Source: an uncultured Saprospiraceae bacterium (GTDB lineage: Bacteria > Bacteroidota > Bacteroidia > Chitinophagales > Saprospiraceae). Taken from it: a DNA stretch of 38,351 nucleotides. The stretch covers positions 1 to 38,351 of the forward strand of contig CALGJW010000265.1 in assembly GCA_937930025.1 (NCBI GenBank), read 5' to 3'. The position numbers were made by a program, and so were the translations under genes. Shown piece after piece: positions 28,519 through 38,351 of the stretch. The notes beneath the pieces were generated by a model. It made no database searches. It saw only the letters and a program-made list of their open reading frames with translations, and was not told the DNA's origin. The stretch's first letter is position 1; every line of letters starts with the position of its first letter.

Positions 28519-29217
28519 CTATTCTGGGACTTGAACCGCTCTTATTTTCTCAAAAAATTCATTGATATCTGCATAATTAGTAATTACATGGCTCACTCCG
28601 TGTTTGAGTAACTCTTGATGATCCCCTACTCTTTTGATTCCTAATAGTGGAAGTTCCATCTCTCGACAGGTTTTCACGTCCCAAATGGCATCTCCGACAT
28701 AGATAATTTTATTCCAATTGAAATTCCTCTTCTGGCATCGTTGAATAGCCTCGTTGATCAGTTCATTCCTAGAGTATTGATTATCAGCGCCACTTATGAT
28801 AAGATCTGATTGCCATAATCCTACATGCTTAAGTTTTACCCTTGCTGGTGCTTCCCAACCTCCAGTTGCCACAGCGAAAGGAATTTCTTCTTTTCGCAAA
28901 TAAGCAAACAAATCTGAAGCTCCGGGAATTATATTAAAGTCTTTTGGATTCTCTTGCCTGGCCAGGTTTATTTTTTTCACAAACTCCAACTTAAATTCTT
29001 CAATTTCATTTGAGGTAGGATATTCTTTTTTGATTTCAAAATAAGCTTCTCTAAAGATCGTATGGTCTGTAACATGAGAGAAGTAGGTCCAATCGATGGT
29101 TGGAAAAGGTTGGCCATATCGTTCTTTGAAGGTTGCCCCAAAGCATTTGCTATCTATTTTTTCAGAATAGACCAAAGTGTTATCTAAATCAAATAGCAGT
29201 AGTGTATCACTTATCAT
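28519..29217 (-). CDS. HAD family hydrolase (phosphatase)
   Basis: Motif I LLFDLDNTLVYSE, motif II FAVATGG, motif IV IIYVGDAIWDVKTCREM. Confidence 0.92.
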   Translation of the reverse strand: MISDTLLLFDLDNTLVYSEKIDSKCFGATFKERYGQPFPTIDWTYFSHVTDHTIFREAYFEIKKEYPTSNEIEEFKLEFVKKINLARQENPKDFNIIPGASDLFAYLRKEEIPFAVATGGWEAPARVKLKHVGLWQSDLIISGADNQYSRNELINEAIQRCQKRNFNWNKIIYVGDAIWDVKTCREMELPLLGIKRVGDHQELLKHGVSHVITNYADINEFFEKIRAVQVPE

Positions 29218-30286
29218 TAAATTTTAATTTTAATTGTACTGTTTCATTGTTCTGTTCTTTTTCAAGATTGCTTGAGGTTAAGCCAATTAATCGGATACTA
29301 CCAGCCTGCTCTATATTTTCTTCTAAAAGGTTTCTAGCTATTTCCAAAATGGTTGCTCGATCCCGAATTTCTGAAGCAAATGTTTTAGATCGAGTAAGGG
29401 ATTGAAAATCGGATTTTTTCATTTTCAAAGTGATGGTTCGACCAAAATTTTCACTTTTCTCCATATATTCAAAAACGCGATGAGCAATGGGTTCTAGCTT
29501 TAGCCAAATGTCGTCTATATTATTTAGATCATCTGAAAAAGTGGTTTCTGCTCCGATGGATTTTCTAATTCTATTTGGCTCGACTGGTCGGTTATCCTCT
29601 CCTCGAACTATCTTGTAATAATAGCTTCCTGATTTTCCAAACCGCTTGGTCATTTCTATCAGGCTCAATTTTTTCAAATCTGATCCTTTGAAAATGCCCA
29701 TTCGTTTCATTTTCTCTTCTGTGACTTTACCAACCCCAAAGAATTTTTTGACAGGCAGTTCATCAATAAAAGATTGGACTTCTTCTGGAAGAATGACTTT
29801 CATTCCGTTTGGCTTATTAATATCGGAGGCTACTTTGGCTAAAAATTTATTGATAGAAACGCCAGCGGAGGCAGTCAATTGTGTTTTTTCAAATATCTTT
29901 TGACGAATCTCCATGGCAATTTTCATTGCTGAAACAATATTCTTTTTGTTGGATGTTACATCTAAAAAAGCTTCGTCTAAAGAAAGCGGTTCTACAAGGT
30001 CGGTGTACTCCAGGAATATTTCTCGAATTTGAGTGCTGACTTGTTTGTAAACATCGAACCTATGCTTCACGAAAATTAATTCTGGACAAAGTCTCGCAGC
30101 CGTGACAGAGGGCATAGCAGAGCGCACTCCAAAAGTTCTGGCTTCGTAGGAGGCTGCTGCGACTACTCCCCTTTTTGCCCCTCCTCCAACCGCAATAGGC
30201 TTTCCTCTTAGTTCAGGAAAGTCACGCTGCTCTACGGATGCAAAAAACGCATCCATATCTATGTGAATAATTTTGCGAAGGGCCAT
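29207..30286 (-). CDS. dinB: DNA polymerase IV (Y-family)
   Basis: KIIHIDMDAFFASVEQRDFPELRGKPIAVGG, ARTFGVRSAMPSVTA, SLDEAFLDVT, SAGVSINKFLAKVASDINKPNG. Confidence 0.97.
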   Translation of the reverse strand: MALRKIIHIDMDAFFASVEQRDFPELRGKPIAVGGGAKRGVVAAASYEARTFGVRSAMPSVTAARLCPELIFVKHRFDVYKQVSTQIREIFLEYTDLVEPLSLDEAFLDVTSNKKNIVSAMKIAMEIRQKIFEKTQLTASAGVSINKFLAKVASDINKPNGMKVILPEEVQSFIDELPVKKFFGVGKVTEEKMKRMGIFKGSDLKKLSLIEMTKRFGKSGSYYYKIVRGEDNRPVEPNRIRKSIGAETTFSDDLNNIDDIWLKLEPIAHRVFEYMEKSENFGRTITLKMKKSDFQSLTRSKTFASEIRDRATILEIARNLLEENIEQAGSIRLIGLTSSNLEKEQNNETVQLKLKFNDK

Positions 30287-30354
30287 TTTATTCTAAAGGA
30301 TAGTTAAGGGCACCTCTGGATCACGAGACAATTACCGGAGGTCTCCATAAGCAA

Positions 30355-30390
30355 TAAAAAACCAGCGAACGATTTTACCTGTCCGCTGGT
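30355..30390 (-). terminator. Rho-independent terminator of candidate RNA, or attenuator upstream of dinB
   Basis: Minus strand ACCAGCGGAC-AGGTAAAATC-GTTCGCTGGT (10 bp, one G-T) followed by a T tract. Confidence 0.75.
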
Positions 30391-30545
30391 CATACGGTTT
30401 TTGGGATGGAAACTGGAGTTGACAATTATTTCTAGAATAAAAGTCTAACAAGTTACCTGGCCATTTCCATCTCCAATTTCGCCAGGCAGTTTCAGGAGTA
30501 ATATCGTCCAACGGTTTTGGTCATGTACTCCCTTTTCCAAAGAAA
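30355..30545 (-). ncRNA. Candidate structured ncRNA or dinB 5' leader, family unknown; 5' end not determined
   Basis: Minus-strand hairpins at 30531-30495 (GGAGTA/TACTCC plus inner CCAA/TTGG) and 30486-30456 (CCTGGC/GCCAGG). Hairpin-2 loop GATGGAAA is complementary to downstream TTTCCATC (30412-30405). Ends in an intrinsic terminator; no convincing ORF. Confidence 0.5.
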
Positions 30546-30621: not shown

Positions 30622-30659
30622 AAAAAGCGCTGAAATCAATAAAGATTTCAGCGCTTTTT
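30622..30659 (-). terminator. Strong, potentially bidirectional terminator downstream of porP/sprF
   Basis: AAAAAGCGCTGAAATC-aataaa-GATTTCAGCGCTTTTT, 16-bp perfect stem. Confidence 0.9.
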
Positions 30660-30677: not shown

Positions 30678-31694
30678 TTAGAAATATCTTGGCGTAATAA
30701 CTCTTTTACTGTTATACACAAAATCATATCCTAACATCACCTCATAAGTTCCTTTTGAAAAGTCATTTAACTTGCTCAAAGTATAATCATAACTTAATCC
30801 AACTCTGATTCCATTACTTAAGTTGTAGGAAGCCCAAATATCTGCGGAATCGAAAGAGCTAAGCCCTCCAAACTGAGATGCTGCAAAAGCAGATCTAAAA
30901 GAAGCTCCTATCCAAAACGCTTCATAAAACAAGAAACTTAAATCTATATCAAATTCTGCTGGTGCTCCAACCTTCTGAGGATCTCTAACATTAGATGAAA
31001 AATCTCCGAGTAAGCCGACTGTTTTTACTAAAATACTTGGCTTGAACATTACTTGCTTCCCTTTCAAAGGAATTATTCCACCTGCCGTAAAATAATAGTG
31101 GCGATACGTTCGTGCCCATTCATCCGAGGTAATTGAGGTTTGTTCTCTAAGATCAAAACCAATTAATCTAGGTACAGAAAAACCCAAATAAAATTTAGGA
31201 TTAGAGTAGTAAAGTCCAGCTCCAAAATTTGGTAGCCAAAGGCTGTATCCCATATCAGAAAAAACTTCGTCTTGTGATGGATCATCTCTATAAACCAAAT
31301 CTGAAAAATCTGATCTCCAATTCATCACACCTGCCTGTAATCCTATTGCTAAATTTCCAGATCCAAAAGGAACCTTGTAGGCATAGACCCCATTAACCAT
31401 GGTTGAACCCGTGGAACCAATTTTATCATTTCCAACACTCAAACCCAATCCAACTCTCTTTTTAAAAGGAGTGTGAATAGTCATGGTCTGAGATAGTGGT
31501 CCACCATCAATTCCAATCCACTGCTGACGATGTAGTACTCTGGCAGACATATATTCTAAACTTCCAGCATAACCAGGGTTGGTTACCATACTGTTGAACA
31601 TATACTTGGTATACATGGGTTCTTGCTGAGCGTTTGCCGTAAATGAGCCAACAAATAGCAAAAAGAAAAAGATAATTCGTGTTGTTCTTTTCAT
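30678..31694 (-). CDS. PorP/SprF family type IX secretion system membrane protein
   Basis: QQEPMYTKYMFNSMVTNPGYAGSLEYMSARVLHRQQWIGIDGGPLSQTMTIHTPF is the PorP/SprF N-terminal signature. Confidence 0.95.
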   Translation of the reverse strand: MKRTTRIIFFFLLFVGSFTANAQQEPMYTKYMFNSMVTNPGYAGSLEYMSARVLHRQQWIGIDGGPLSQTMTIHTPFKKRVGLGLSVGNDKIGSTGSTMVNGVYAYKVPFGSGNLAIGLQAGVMNWRSDFSDLVYRDDPSQDEVFSDMGYSLWLPNFGAGLYYSNPKFYLGFSVPRLIGFDLREQTSITSDEWARTYRHYYFTAGGIIPLKGKQVMFKPSILVKTVGLLGDFSSNVRDPQKVGAPAEFDIDLSFLFYEAFWIGASFRSAFAASQFGGLSSFDSADIWASYNLSNGIRVGLSYDYTLSKLNDFSKGTYEVMLGYDFVYNSKRVITPRYF

Positions 31695-32019: not shown

Positions 32020-35000
32020 TTATCTGTGGAGCTGTAAATATCCACTGTAGGTAGTTCCTTCTCCATCTTCAATTACATAGAAGTAAGTTCCATCAGGTAA
32101 ACGCTTACCATCAAATGTTCCTTCCCAACCTCTATCATTGGTATATCCTTTTTCATTATGTACTTGATTACCCCATCTGTTGAAAACACAAACTTGATTG
32201 TTCGGGAAGTTTTCAATTCCAAGGATGGTAAAGACATCATTCACACCATCAAGGTTTGGTGAAAATCCTGAAAAGATAATTAATTCTTCACATAATACTT
32301 CGATAGTCACAATGGCCATGTCAGTACCAAACTCATTCGAAATGGAATACATAAACTGATCGATTCCACCACAGAAATTATCATTTGGAGTATAAGTTAT
32401 CGTTCCGTCAGGATTGATAATTACTGTTCCATTTGAAGGTTGTCCCGTGATTTCAAATCCTTCTAAATTTCCATTGATCGTATCATTTAGCAATACTTCA
32501 ATTACCACTGCATTACCAATCGTTGTTGTTGTATCATCATCAATTGCGATTGGCAATAGATTATTAAAGACATCAAAGATTACATAAGTAGTGTCGCAAA
32601 CCATCTGTGCATCACATATCACCATACAAGCAGTATCCTGTCCTACAATTGTACCGGTGTAAATAATACAATTGGTGGTAGGATCGATAATGAAATCAAC
32701 ATTCTCTCCAATTGATTGAGGACAAATATTGAAGATAGTCTGTATTGGTCCTGTCAGTTCTGAACCATCTAAACAAAGTGTATCAGTCTCACCTACCAGA
32801 ATTGGAATCTCCAAAGTATCTGGTGTAGGTACAATCACTTGAACAATTAAGATTGTTGTATCACAGAATCCAAGGCTGTCGCAAATTACTAAGCAGGCCG
32901 TATCCTGACCAATTAGATCAGCGTTATAAGCTACGCAGTATGTGTCATTGTTCAATACGAAGTCAACATTCAAGTTGCTCGGATTTTCACAATCGTTGAT
33001 GAATACATCTAAAGCATTCTGGAAAATCGTAGTATCCAAGCAAAGTGAATCTGTAGTTCCAAGATTTATTACTTGAATAATTGTATCCGTAACAGGTACT
33101 ACTTGAATTTCTACATTGAAAGTATCACAAACTCCTGCAGCATCGCAAACCTCGAAACAGTATGCATCGCTTCCCAATAGTATTCCAGTTATGTCGATAC
33201 AATTAGATCCAGCCACTAAGCTAAATGATGTGTTACCATCTGCTTCAGCAGGACATAGATTCTGAATGGTTGCTACATTATTGAAATCAAAACAGTAGGT
33301 ATCTATTTCGCCTTCATTTATTGTCAACAAGGTATCTATCAAGATTGGAGGATCTGTACAAGTAACATCGAAAACAATATTCTGGAAACATCCGTCTACA
33401 ATGTTTTCAATCAATAGATTATGTGGTCCATCACTCAAATAAATCGTAGTCGCGTCAGGAATAATCTGATTCGGAACTTCAAACTGAGGAACCATATTCG
33501 CAGAGATGAATAGTGAACCATAGTTTCCGGTTCCGTTTCCACCAACAATTACAAAACCAAATACTTCCCAGTCTCCAGCAGGATCCCATACATTCATAGA
33601 ATCTGCTAGTTGCTGTGGTGAAGTGAATAATGGTAAAGTAAACGTCTGTCCATTTGCAGTCCACTCATCTAAAGTGTAAGCTCCAGGTGCACCCAATTGG
33701 AATGCGACATATTGATATTGAGTGTCGATGACACAAACATCAAATGCTCCGTCATACTCAACTCCATTATCTGTGATTTCATAATTGAATAAATCTCCAA
33801 TCTCAAAGTCTAGACAAATTGGTGCTCCTTGCGCACAATCGTCGATAACAAATGATGTTGGACCGGTATAGTATGGATCGCAATTTGAACCATTTGTAAT
33901 AGATAATATTACGACAGTAGTATCACAAAGCATTAGATCATTGTTACACAATATCACCGTCACTGTATCCAAGAATGGTCCGGAGACTCCTGGGTTCGGA
34001 ATGTATCGGTAGCAATTATCGTTAGTGATGAAAAAGACTCCATCATCTGCCGTTGCGCTTGTATTTGTTCCGGTAACCACTCCACCTAATTCATCAATAT
34101 TCAAGCAACTATCTAAAGTTACATCTATTGGTGTACTGACATAAATGGTATCAGTTGTAGGAGTAGAAAGTGCTTCAATTGAAATTATGACAACAGTTGT
34201 ATCACAAAGCATTAAATCATTGTTACACAGCACTACAATTGCAGTATCTAAGAATGGTCCGGTCACCCCAGGGTTTGGAATGTATCGGTAGCAATTGTCA
34301 GCAGTAATGAAAAATACTCCGTCATCAATGTTACCTGTTATATTTGTTCCGGTGACTACACCTCCGATTTCATCAATATTCAGACAATCATCCAGTGTTA
34401 CATCAACAAAAGTATTGATATAAACTGTATCAGTAGTTGGTGTAGAAACAGCTCCAATTGAGATTATAACTACAGTTGTATCACAAAGCATTAAATCATT
34501 GTTACAAAGCACTACAATCGCAGTATCTACATTTGAACCTGTCGCTCCTGGATTCGGAATATATCGGTAGCAATTTTCATTGCTTATAAAGAATACTCCA
34601 TCATTAGAACTTGCATTGGTATTTGAGCCAGTTACATTTCCTCCGATTTCATCTATATTCAAACAGCTATCAAGGGTTACCCCTGGAAGTGTGCTCACAT
34701 AGATTGTATCAGTTACTGGCCCTCCAAGTGGCATGCTTATTATTGAGAATGAAATACAAGTTGTATCTGAATTCACCCCATCATTAGCAATAATGCAAAT
34801 CTCATCTACATCGTTTCCTTCCAAATCTTCCGCATTATAAATTAAGCATCCGTTTTGATCTAGTTCCCAGTTTCCGAAAGTTGAAGAACCGACTGTCGTA
34901 CCGTCTGACAATGAATAAGTCACTTGAGTGGGATCGAAACAAGATTCGAGTACGAAACAAATCTGATCAGCACTATTTGTCAATATTGTGATATCTGTTG

Positions 35001-38000
35001 ATTCCGGCGTACCACAATCTACACAAGTATCTTCCACTTCAAGATTTTGAACTGAAACGATACATCCGTTAGCATCAGTTACTTCTAAGCTATATGAACC
35101 TGGAGCTAAGTTATTTCTATTTGAAACATTGTTTACTCCAGCAACATCTGCCCAATCAAACTGGTAACCAGGAACACCACCGGTAGCTTCTACCGTAATT
35201 TTCCCAGGATCTTGACAAGTTGCATCCTGAATAGCAATGTCCAGTTTCAACTCTTGAGGATCGATTACTTCGAATGTTAAGCTATTCGCTAAACATCCGT
35301 TGGAATCAGAAATCAATAGAATATAATTCCCAGCTGTTAAATCACCGTTGTCAATTTCATCTCCGTTAGCATCAAGAATTACTTCTTGGGCTGGTCCTTG
35401 AAAGTCCAAACTTGGATTTAATGAATAGTCTAAATTTCCATCATTAGTTCCAGCACAACTTACTTCAATCGGAAGGATGCTATTAACAATGATTTGAACA
35501 TCACCTTGCACATCAGCAGCTAGACCAAAGTCAAAAGTTGTGGAACATCCTGTAGTTTGATCAGTGATCTCTATAGAGTAATTACCATCTTCCAAATCAT
35601 TTCTTTGCTGTCCTGATTCACCATCACTCCATTCAAAAGTATATGAACCTGAACCACCTAATACTACAATCTCAACAGATCCATCTGCTTGATCGCAATC
35701 AGGTCTATTCAGAATATTTGCAGAAGCCTGCAAGTTATTTTGCTCTCCAATCTCAATGGCAAGGATATTCTCACATCCTGTAGCAGGATCAGAAACCGTT
35801 ACAAAACAAGTTCCTGCTGGAAGATTTGATGGATTAAAATCTGTAGATCCATTACACCAAGTATAATCAAGTGTAAACGGTGTCATTACAGCAGTTCCAT
35901 TATTCATTCCACATTGTGCAGGAGAAGTTTGTGCTAATGTTGCTTGTGGACCATTTGCATTTTGAACAACTACAGTTTGAGTAACTACACAGTCAACACT
36001 ATTTCCATCCTCAACTGTCACTTGATAAACTCCAGCTGGTAAGTCAACAAATACATTTCCGTTTTGAGTTCCAGCATTTGGACTTAGGAAATACTTATAG
36101 TTAGTTACATCATCAAACATTTGAACCGTAATTGAACCTGTACTTTCATTACAATCAGATTCTATTACAACGATGTTTGCAACAACTGGATCAGTACAAT
36201 TTGAAGAACAAGTTTGACTTAATTGGATATCTAAAATTTCCAAACTACAACCTTGAGCATCTTCAATATTTACACTATAATCTCCAGCAACTAAGCCCGT
36301 TCTATCTTTTGAATTATCTGATCCAGAAAGATCAGTCCAATCAAAAGTATATGCAGCAGTACCTCCAGAAATTTCAATTTGTATACTTCCATCGTCTTCA
36401 CAACTTTGGTCAAGAATTCCAACATTCACTCTTAACTCAGTCGCTTCTGCAATGGAAAAGTCTAAGTTTCCAGCAATACATCCATTAGCATCTTCAACTA
36501 ACATGAAGTAATTGCCAGGGGCAAGGTTATTTTCACTCACCTCTGTTCCCGTTCTATCGATAACATTCATAGTAGCAGGAAGTGCTAAACCATTTGAAGC
36601 TATGTAGTCAAAAGAAACGCTTCCGTTTTCTAAACCTACACAAGATTCGTTTGCTAGGCTTAGCAATTGGATATCAGCTCCTGGCACATCGTTATTTAAA
36701 ACAAAAGTATACGTATCGCTACAGCCTGTAGACAAATCAGTAATATCCACTGCATGAACTCCTTTATTTAACCCTGTTCTTGTTCCATCAGATAACTGTG
36801 TTTGATCTTCCCAAAGGAATTCATAGTTACCTGAACCATTTTCAACAATAATCTCAACCTCACCGTCAGCTTCATCGCAAGTTGGTGCTTGAATAGTATT
36901 ATATGAAATAGTTAAAGCACTTTCTTCTGGAACTTCAACCAGTACGACATCAATACAAGGTGGTACATTTCCATCAGATACAATTACTTCATAAGTTCCA
37001 GGAGCTAGATTAGTTCTTGAAGAACCTGTAAAGTTTCCATTTGACCAAATGTAGTTATTAGATGCAGGCAGGAGACTAACTGATCCATCATTTGCACCAC
37101 AAATTGCTGGTGCTACATTTATTGCATCTACAGTTGGTCCTCCAACAGTTCCTACTGTTACATCAACCACTGTTGAGCAATCGTTAACACCGTTTTGAGT
37201 AACAGTTACAGTGTAAAAACCTGGTGCCAAATCCGAGCGCTTGTTTCCAAGTCCGTTTGGCACACCCTGAATAGTAGACCAGCTATATGAGAAGTTTGAA
37301 ACATTTCCTACAGGAATTATTTCAGCAGAAGCATCTATCTCTCCACAATGAGCTTCGAATACAATTATATCATTGATCAATGGTGCCACACAAGTACACT
37401 CACTTCCAATTGTTACTTCTAATTCTACTGAACAACCCAATGGAGAAGTTGCGATCACTTCATAGGTTCCTGCATCTAAGTCATTTCTTTCAGCTCCATT
37501 TCCACCATCACTCCATACAAAATTGTAATTAGTCGGCTCCAATCTTGCAACTCCGTTTGACATTTCACAGTATTCGGCTTTTGTATAAACTAGTTCTGCA
37601 AAGGTGCTAACACCTTCGAAAGATACTCCGTCAACGTCAAGAGATCCGCAGATTGTTCCACTCCCTTGAGTTAATAATCCGAATACATCAAAGCCAGTAG
37701 TTGTTCCAAAATCTATAATTGATATATCCAAAGTAGCAGGATCATATACTAATGTATGTATTGTATAAGTTGATAGGTCAGATACCGTGAAAGTAGGATT
37801 TGCACCTGCTTCAATAATCACTAAGTCAGAACCCTCGGTTAAAACATATATTGTTTCGAAACCAGCAGGAACAACATCATCGCCATTTGGTATAGCTGAT
37901 ATTGTAGCAGTTCCTTGACTAAGACAATAGTTAGATTGATCCTGATCTAATGTTCCTGCAAAAGCATCACATTGACAAGCATCTTCTATCACTAAGTTAT

Positions 38001-38351
38001 TCAATGTTTCAGAACAGCCCTTTTCATCCGTAACAGTCACGTCATATGATCCTGGAACTAGGTCATCTCTAAGGAACGGATTGTCATTACCCGCTAGGTC
38101 AGCCCAATCAGCAGTAACAACTCCTGATCCTCCAACATATCCAACATTGATACTTCCAAATTCACCACAATTAGCTGGGAATATAGTGTAGTCAACAACT
38201 AGTTCAGGTCCAACTACAACTTCCACAGTTTTTATTGCAGAACATGCACCATTTGAAATAGCAACTGTATAAGTTCCTGCATTATCTGTAGAAACATTCG
38301 TAATAACTGGATTCGCTTCTGAAGAAGTAAATCCATTAGGTCCTGTCCATT
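32020..38351 (-). CDS. Giant multidomain T9SS cargo/adhesin: SprB-like/Ig-like repeats, tandem repeats and CHU_C (gliding-motility-associated) C-terminal domain; 5' end beyond right edge
   Basis: C-term IIFSGFSPNLDGVNDVFTILGIENFPNNQVCVFNRWGNQVHNEKGYTNDRGWEGTFDGKRLPDGTYFYVIEDGEGTTYSGYLQLHR. The frame stays open past the listed start at 38226 (WTGPNGFTSSEANPVITNVSTDNAGTYTVAISNGACSAIKTVEVVV), so that GTG is an internal Val. Confidence 0.93.
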   Translation of the reverse strand, partial: WTGPNGFTSSEANPVITNVSTDNAGTYTVAISNGACSAIKTVEVVVGPELVVDYTIFPANCGEFGSINVGYVGGSGVVTADWADLAGNDNPFLRDDLVPGSYDVTVTDEKGCSETLNNLVIEDACQCDAFAGTLDQDQSNYCLSQGTATISAIPNGDDVVPAGFETIYVLTEGSDLVIIEAGANPTFTVSDLSTYTIHTLVYDPATLDISIIDFGTTTGFDVFGLLTQGSGTICGSLDVDGVSFEGVSTFAELVYTKAEYCEMSNGVARLEPTNYNFVWSDGGNGAERNDLDAGTYEVIATSPLGCSVELEVTIGSECTCVAPLINDIIVFEAHCGEIDASAEIIPVGNVSNFSYSWSTIQGVPNGLGNKRSDLAPGFYTVTVTQNGVNDCSTVVDVTVGTVGGPTVDAINVAPAICGANDGSVSLLPASNNYIWSNGNFTGSSRTNLAPGTYEVIVSDGNVPPCIDVVLVEVPEESALTISYNTIQAPTCDEADGEVEIIVENGSGNYEFLWEDQTQLSDGTRTGLNKGVHAVDITDLSTGCSDTYTFVLNNDVPGADIQLLSLANESCVGLENGSVSFDYIASNGLALPATMNVIDRTGTEVSENNLAPGNYFMLVEDANGCIAGNLDFSIAEATELRVNVGILDQSCEDDGSIQIEISGGTAAYTFDWTDLSGSDNSKDRTGLVAGDYSVNIEDAQGCSLEILDIQLSQTCSSNCTDPVVANIVVIESDCNESTGSITVQMFDDVTNYKYFLSPNAGTQNGNVFVDLPAGVYQVTVEDGNSVDCVVTQTVVVQNANGPQATLAQTSPAQCGMNNGTAVMTPFTLDYTWCNGSTDFNPSNLPAGTCFVTVSDPATGCENILAIEIGEQNNLQASANILNRPDCDQADGSVEIVVLGGSGSYTFEWSDGESGQQRNDLEDGNYSIEITDQTTGCSTTFDFGLAADVQGDVQIIVNSILPIEVSCAGTNDGNLDYSLNPSLDFQGPAQEVILDANGDEIDNGDLTAGNYILLISDSNGCLANSLTFEVIDPQELKLDIAIQDATCQDPGKITVEATGGVPGYQFDWADVAGVNNVSNRNNLAPGSYSLEVTDANGCIVSVQNLEVEDTCVDCGTPESTDITILTNSADQICFVLESCFDPTQVTYSLSDGTTVGSSTFGNWELDQNGCLIYNAEDLEGNDVDEICIIANDGVNSDTTCISFSIISMPLGGPVTDTIYVSTLPGVTLDSCLNIDEIGGNVTGSNTNASSNDGVFFISNENCYRYIPNPGATGSNVDTAIVVLCNNDLMLCDTTVVIISIGAVSTPTTDTVYINTFVDVTLDDCLNIDEIGGVVTGTNITGNIDDGVFFITADNCYRYIPNPGVTGPFLDTAIVVLCNNDLMLCDTTVVIISIEALSTPTTDTIYVSTPIDVTLDSCLNIDELGGVVTGTNTSATADDGVFFITNDNCYRYIPNPGVSGPFLDTVTVILCNNDLMLCDTTVVILSITNGSNCDPYYTGPTSFVIDDCAQGAPICLDFEIGDLFNYEITDNGVEYDGAFDVCVIDTQYQYVAFQLGAPGAYTLDEWTANGQTFTLPLFTSPQQLADSMNVWDPAGDWEVFGFVIVGGNGTGNYGSLFISANMVPQFEVPNQIIPDATTIYLSDGPHNLLIENIVDGCFQNIVFDVTCTDPPILIDTLLTINEGEIDTYCFDFNNVATIQNLCPAEADGNTSFSLVAGSNCIDITGILLGSDAYCFEVCDAAGVCDTFNVEIQVVPVTDTIIQVINLGTTDSLCLDTTIFQNALDVFINDCENPSNLNVDFVLNNDTYCVAYNADLIGQDTACLVICDSLGFCDTTILIVQVIVPTPDTLEIPILVGETDTLCLDGSELTGPIQTIFNICPQSIGENVDFIIDPTTNCIIYTGTIVGQDTACMVICDAQMVCDTTYVIFDVFNNLLPIAIDDDTTTTIGNAVVIEVLLNDTINGNLEGFEITGQPSNGTVIINPDGTITYTPNDNFCGGIDQFMYSISNEFGTDMAIVTIEVLCEELIIFSGFSPNLDGVNDVFTILGIENFPNNQVCVFNRWGNQVHNEKGYTNDRGWEGTFDGKRLPDGTYFYVIEDGEGTTYSGYLQLHR
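32568..33350 (-). repeat. Three diverged tandem repeats of about 86 aa
   Basis: Recurring xDTxxxx..LxxxDTxCLDxx...NCxxYxxxLxGQDTACxVICDxxxxCDTTxxIxxV in PILIDTLLT..., VTDTIIQV... and PTPDTLEIP... Confidence 0.75.
33877..34713 (-). repeat. Three tandem 93-aa (279-nt) repeats
   Basis: TDT(I/V)Y(V/I)xT...VTLD(S/D)CLNIDE(I/L)GGxVTG(S/T)N...DGVFFI...NCYRYIPNPG...LCNNDLMLCDTTVVIISI. The shared nucleotide string atcacaaagcatta begins at 33922, 34201 and 34480 (279-nt spacing). Confidence 0.93.
35017..37398 (-). repeat. Two tandem about 395-400 aa super-repeats, each of five SprB/Ig-like modules in the same order
   Basis: Unit A (CTCVAPLINDIIVFEAHCGE..., 36199-37398) and unit B (CTDPVVANIVVIESDCNES..., 35017-36198) align module by module: GPxxxx..PAxCGxNNG; PTCDEADGEVEIIVENGSGNYEFLW / PDCDQADGSVEIVVLGGSGSYTFEW; LRVNVGILDQSCEDDGSI / LKLDIAIQDATCQDPGKI. 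Confidence 0.85.

Follow-up and report, generated by a model that had tools for sequence, protein, structure and literature searches.

Terminator-based attenuator leaders and riboswitches with terminator expression platforms are the described systems closest to the RNA reported here, which is encoded on the minus strand 5' of dinB in the window (the whole stretch of DNA that was analysed, 38,351 nt). They have in common with it a structured 5' leader (putative here), a conserved block whose sequence can base-pair with the loop of a hairpin, and an intrinsic terminator, all directly before one operon; the dinB RNA differs from them in that no conserved antiterminator was found. In riboswitches with an H-type pseudoknot of the preQ1-II/III kind, a hairpin loop pairs with a downstream strand and a further hairpin lies in the spanning loop. 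The dinB RNA could share this topology, the pseudoknot being only putative here, but it has no Rfam match and its neighbouring genes are not related to queuosine. 6S-Flavo RNA (RF01685) is likewise of Bacteroidota and of comparable length, whereas the dinB RNA shows another architecture, gives no match to that model at permissive thresholds and stands before dinB only. The open-licence papers searched describe no leader RNA for dinB, and the motif did not turn up in the catalogue of bacterial structured RNAs that was consulted (PMC2864571). We read the locus, at about even confidence, as a putative genus-restricted, transcription-attenuating 5' leader of the dinB-HAD operon. More tentatively, it could represent a new RNA family, an attenuation switch on a Y-family translesion polymerase that replaces a LexA operator or adds to one.

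Concerning known families, none of the three available copies is matched credibly by any Rfam 15 model at gathering or permissive thresholds. A tRNA is the only match in the whole window at the gathering threshold. The best weak matches (L20 leader at 25.7 bits, several miRNA and snoRNA models) fall on the porP terminator and were rejected. The initial annotation had also raised 6S or 6S-Flavo as a possibility, and this part is not supported. The size is similar, and a genuine 6S is unaccounted for, as RF00013 (6S) and RF01685 find nothing in the three genomes of the genus; probably these models miss it because it has diverged too far in this group. Nevertheless, it is most improbable that the locus is 6S or another housekeeping RNA in diverged form. 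The three copies fold into separate hairpins with no long rod and central bubble, they were found in a single genus whereas 6S is expected family-wide, and no 6S match appears in the window or its homologues at E-values up to 5-10. In a wider scan of 61 genomes (G000, G001, G002 and 58 related ones), 6S-Flavo gave no match above the cut-off.

Anatomy of the RNA and its conservation within the genus

The RNA extends over about 190 nt of the minus strand, from 30545 to 30355. Hairpin 1 (GGAGTA/TACTCC, inner CCAA/TTGG, loop CCAAAACCGTTGG) has its arms at 30531-30526 and 30500-30495. Hairpin 2 (CCTGGC/GCCAGG, arms at 30486-30481 and 30461-30456) bears in its loop GATGGAAA (30464..30471), the exact complement of TTTCCATC downstream (30412-30405); the two are the 5' and 3' strands of a candidate loop-to-downstream pairing, and TTTCCATC lies inside the conserved block CTCCAGTTTCCATCCCAAAAACCG (30395..30418). 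Hairpin 3 (GAC..TTATT/AATAA..GTC, 30421..30445) comes after hairpin 2 and before the TTTCCATC strand. An intrinsic terminator (30356..30390) follows, with a 10-bp stem formed by ACCAGCGGAC and GTTCGCTGGT (30390-30381 and 30370-30361) and then a T tract, and 69 nt separate it from the dinB ATG (30286). All the minus-strand elements that the initial annotation had named, namely hairpins 1 and 2, the exact GATGGAAA/TTTCCATC match, the 10-bp terminator and the 69-nt spacing, lie where it had put them, and hairpin 3 (30445-30421) was absent from its list. The 69-nt spacer of the window (30287-30355) is absent from the congeners; it contains the near-palindrome GGAGACCTCC, of the form GGA-N4-TCC and so one base short of a GGA-N5-TCC operator, as well as an ACCTC/GAGGT inverted repeat.

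A DNA search returned homologues only in G001 and G002, both of the same genus as the window, and our comparison set thus consists of three sequences from sampled genomes of one genus. RNA identity to the window is 76% over 201 nt in G001 and 74% over the core in G002, and DinB identity between the window and each congener is 70-73%. Fourfold-degenerate sites are 25-31% identical across the three species in dinB and 25-41% when dinB, porP and the HAD gene are taken together, that is, at or near saturation. The three species show no difference in the 18-mer TTTCCATCCCAAAAACCG of the conserved block, nor in ACCAG/CTGGT, CCTGG or GATGGAA. Because TTTCCATCCCAAAAACCG is invariant against saturated fourfold sites, the alignment argues that this noncoding stretch is under strong purifying selection. 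A coding explanation was rejected on reading the sequences, as a G001 frame ending in TPVSIPKTV* is interrupted in the window and its stop is lost in G002.

Sequence change has left hairpin 2, hairpin 3 and the terminator able to form. The hairpin 2 stem is kept in all three species, its last pair being C-G, U-A or U-G, while hairpin 3 occupies the same place with a different sequence in each (TTATT/AATAA in the window, AGCATT/AATGCT in G001, GCTTTT/AAAAGC in G002), and in the G002 terminator two pairs are altered on both sides. Hairpin 1 reads GGAGTTA/TAACTCC in G001, with one compensatory change from A-U to U-A relative to the window, and its position in G002 is taken by an unrelated hairpin (AAGGG/CCCTT). 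Three sequences are too few for a statistical covariation test. The earlier proposal of a structured RNA that ends in an intrinsic terminator is supported, with conservation added to it; a lack of conservation in relatives was to count against the proposal, and within the genus conservation is present. A structured RNA restricted to one genus can escape family libraries and yet gain support from saturated synonymous sites.

The same alignment bears on the notion that the conserved element is DNA, a regulatory region of operator or promoter sites in inverted orientation. The strongest conservation is indeed that of sequence, and at the DNA level, too, GATGGAAA/TTTCCATC makes an inverted repeat. 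We consider this improbable, given that hairpin 3 and the apical part of the terminator keep their pairing while their sequence changes, that neither half-site is palindromic in itself and that the known Bacteroidetes LexA operators are absent.

Folding statistics and alternative pairings

Folding energy sets the RNA apart from shuffled sequences to a moderate degree. The z-score is -2.2 for the whole RNA in the window; that of the core is -2.5 in the window and -4.0 and -3.8 in the congeners, falling to about -1.8 to -2.3 in the three species when the terminator is left out. Taken individually, hairpin 2 finds its equal in 0.2-2% of shuffles and the terminator in 0.2%, hairpin 3 stands out in two of the three species, and hairpin 1 is weak (equalled by 4.6-12%). 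When the window sequence is shuffled, the combination of a 6-bp hairpin and an 8-nt loop-to-downstream match arises in 1.8% of cases; G002 also contains it under this strict definition, and G001, with 7 nt matching, does not. Sequence conservation is much stronger evidence for the RNA than folding energy.

The pseudoknot of the initial annotation is affected differently in its two parts: the complementarity is real, and the same pairing can be made by a nested helix. The pseudoknot strands GATGGAA/TTCCATC do not vary among the three species, and with both strands essentially invariant, covariation speaks neither for the pseudoknot nor against it. If hairpin 2 opens, GATGGAA/TTCCATC becomes an ordinary nested helix that encloses hairpin 3 and joins the loop of hairpin 2 to the invariant block; in the consensus this helix also takes up the 5' arm of hairpin 2 (UGGU with ACCG). 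The RNAalifold consensus favours the nested helix, and the minimum-energy folds are nested in the window and G002 and retain hairpin 2 in G001, the two states differing by 0.9 kcal/mol in the window. These preferences come from programs that score nested structures and leave the pseudoknot itself unscored. A loop-to-block pseudoknot is therefore one possible conformation, and a two-state switch between hairpin 2 and the nested helix is an attractive but unproven model.

Neither of the competing folds opens the terminator by itself. An exchange of partners between CCUGG/CCAGG and ACCAG/CUGGU is possible in principle and would supply an antiterminator candidate. The energy penalty for forcing the 5' arm of hairpin 2 onto the terminator is 1.0 kcal/mol in the window, against 12.9 and 5.5 kcal/mol in the congeners; in these models, the main weakness of attenuation is the lack of a conserved antiterminator.

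Gene setting and possible roles of the RNA

The dinB gene (29207..30286, minus strand) encodes a DNA polymerase IV of 359 aa with Pfam IMS/IMS_C domains, which scores 472 bits against NCBIfam NF002677 (cut-off 256) and has its best named matches in Lewinellaceae, Lewinella and Neolewinella. By these matches the genus probably belongs to Saprospiraceae or to a closely related family of Bacteroidota. Its end is overlapped by a HAD-family hydrolase gene (28519..29217, minus strand), and the order is the same in G001 and G002. Upstream of the RNA lies a porP/sprF-type gene (30678..31694, minus strand) followed by its own terminator at about 30622-30653. In G001, a 97-aa ORF separates porP from the RNA, which stays with dinB and not with porP; the ORF (L004, 3884-4177, plus strand) is ankyrin-repeat-like. 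Further upstream of porP, the window encodes a 2068-aa protein (32020-38226, minus strand) with SprB repeats and a CHU_C type IX secretion domain.

The distance from the terminator T tract to the dinB ATG is 8 nt in G001 and 3 nt in G002. Such gaps leave no room for a conventional separate promoter, so that transcription of dinB probably passes through the terminator. This spacing strongly suggests that the RNA lies inside the dinB UTR in the two congeners, and the same is assumed for the window, where the 69 nt between terminator and ATG are room enough for a promoter and count against a leader. A candidate -7 element, TTTCTTTG (30538..30545, minus strand), matches the Bacteroidota consensus TAnnTTTG with one mismatch. 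In the window and G001 it directly precedes hairpin 1 on the 5' side, and TAAAGTTG takes its place in G002. One-mismatch elements of this type occur in 24 of 27 control regions and are thus common, so that their position here no more than suggests a transcript starting where hairpin 1 begins. From there to dinB, neither the window nor G002 contains a TAnnTTTG-like element with at most one mismatch.

A leader is favoured because of the spacing between terminator and dinB, the promoter-like element and the RNA staying with dinB in G001. Under the attenuation model, transcription would start at the base of hairpin 1, the transcript would fold into hairpins 1-3 with the invariant block paired to the hairpin 2 loop, and the terminator would stop most polymerases; some signal that binds the invariant block or pairs with it might then let a fraction of them read through into dinB.

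The main competing explanation is a standalone trans-acting sRNA with its own promoter and terminator, dinB being served by leaky readthrough or by a promoter of its own. We consider it possible and less likely than the leader, and the same caution applies to its corollary, that the invariant block is a seed for target mRNAs or a protein-binding site. An sRNA would agree with the size, the hairpin-rich transcript and the strong terminator, the loop pairing requires less than the full length of the invariant block, and CAAAACCG is repeated in the hairpin 1 loop of the window and G001. Leaky readthrough giving low dinB expression would accommodate most of the facts behind the leader reading, too. 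Against an sRNA, the position before dinB is fixed in all three species, the G002 T tract ends 3 nt from the dinB start, and no second near-exact copy or complement of the block (up to one mismatch in 18) exists elsewhere in the three genomes, a search that short seeds would escape. The initial annotation had raised two roles, that of an sRNA and that of an attenuating dinB leader, and the gene neighbourhood agrees better with the second.

Error-prone polymerases are usually repressed by LexA-type repressors. The canonical LexA DNA-binding domain was not found in the three genomes of the genus. Bacteroidetes lack canonical LexA, and their non-canonical LexA proteins, of the S24 family, bind GGA-N5-TCC or CTAA-N5-TTAG, often before dinB (PMC8565304); the dinB upstream regions of the three species contain neither of these operators. 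With no canonical LexA domain and no published operator, control of dinB by other means is plausible, and a diverged LexA operator may also be present before the gene. In a group without canonical LexA, a leader terminator abutting dinB would make control of mutagenesis at the RNA level directly testable. S24-type repressors do occur in the genus and could be non-canonical LexA. The HTH/S24 repressor-like genes L137, L138 and L139 (G002:C320, G001:C32 and G000:C155) share a similar upstream stretch, TGTTTATTTGT..TCACCTCCA, and two of them have an ABC transporter gene alongside; their products are possible relatives of non-canonical LexA.

Distribution beyond the genus

Wide scans of the family and order were run under strict filters with R1, a covariance model of the RNA core. 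R1 matches all three genus genomes, and the RNA stands directly 5' of dinB in each. Among 298 family genomes it gave three real matches and one spurious one, and among 199 order genomes, a list that does not contain G002, two real matches. Three R1 matches were rejected (G253 at 34.5 bits, G001:C63 at 26.1 bits and G521 at 39.3 bits), as none keeps the invariant block and the score comes largely from a terminator and AT-rich sequence; in G253 and G521 the match moreover runs into the end of an ORF that is unrelated. In a one-mismatch scan of 398 family genomes, the exact 18-mer was confined to the three genus genomes, and one-mismatch matches appeared in 25 others, where none of the nine loci checked scores with R1. 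An 18-mer match among viral contigs was rejected, being located inside a helicase-like coding gene.

Other genera possess dinB without the RNA. The clearest case is G201, of another genus, in which the same porP-dinB junction (L097) has a short spacer after the porP terminator and no RNA, with a DinB 68% identical. Because other genera, notably that of G201, carry dinB without it, the RNA would have been gained in the genus of the window or lost in its neighbours. The G201 junction serves as an empty-site comparison.
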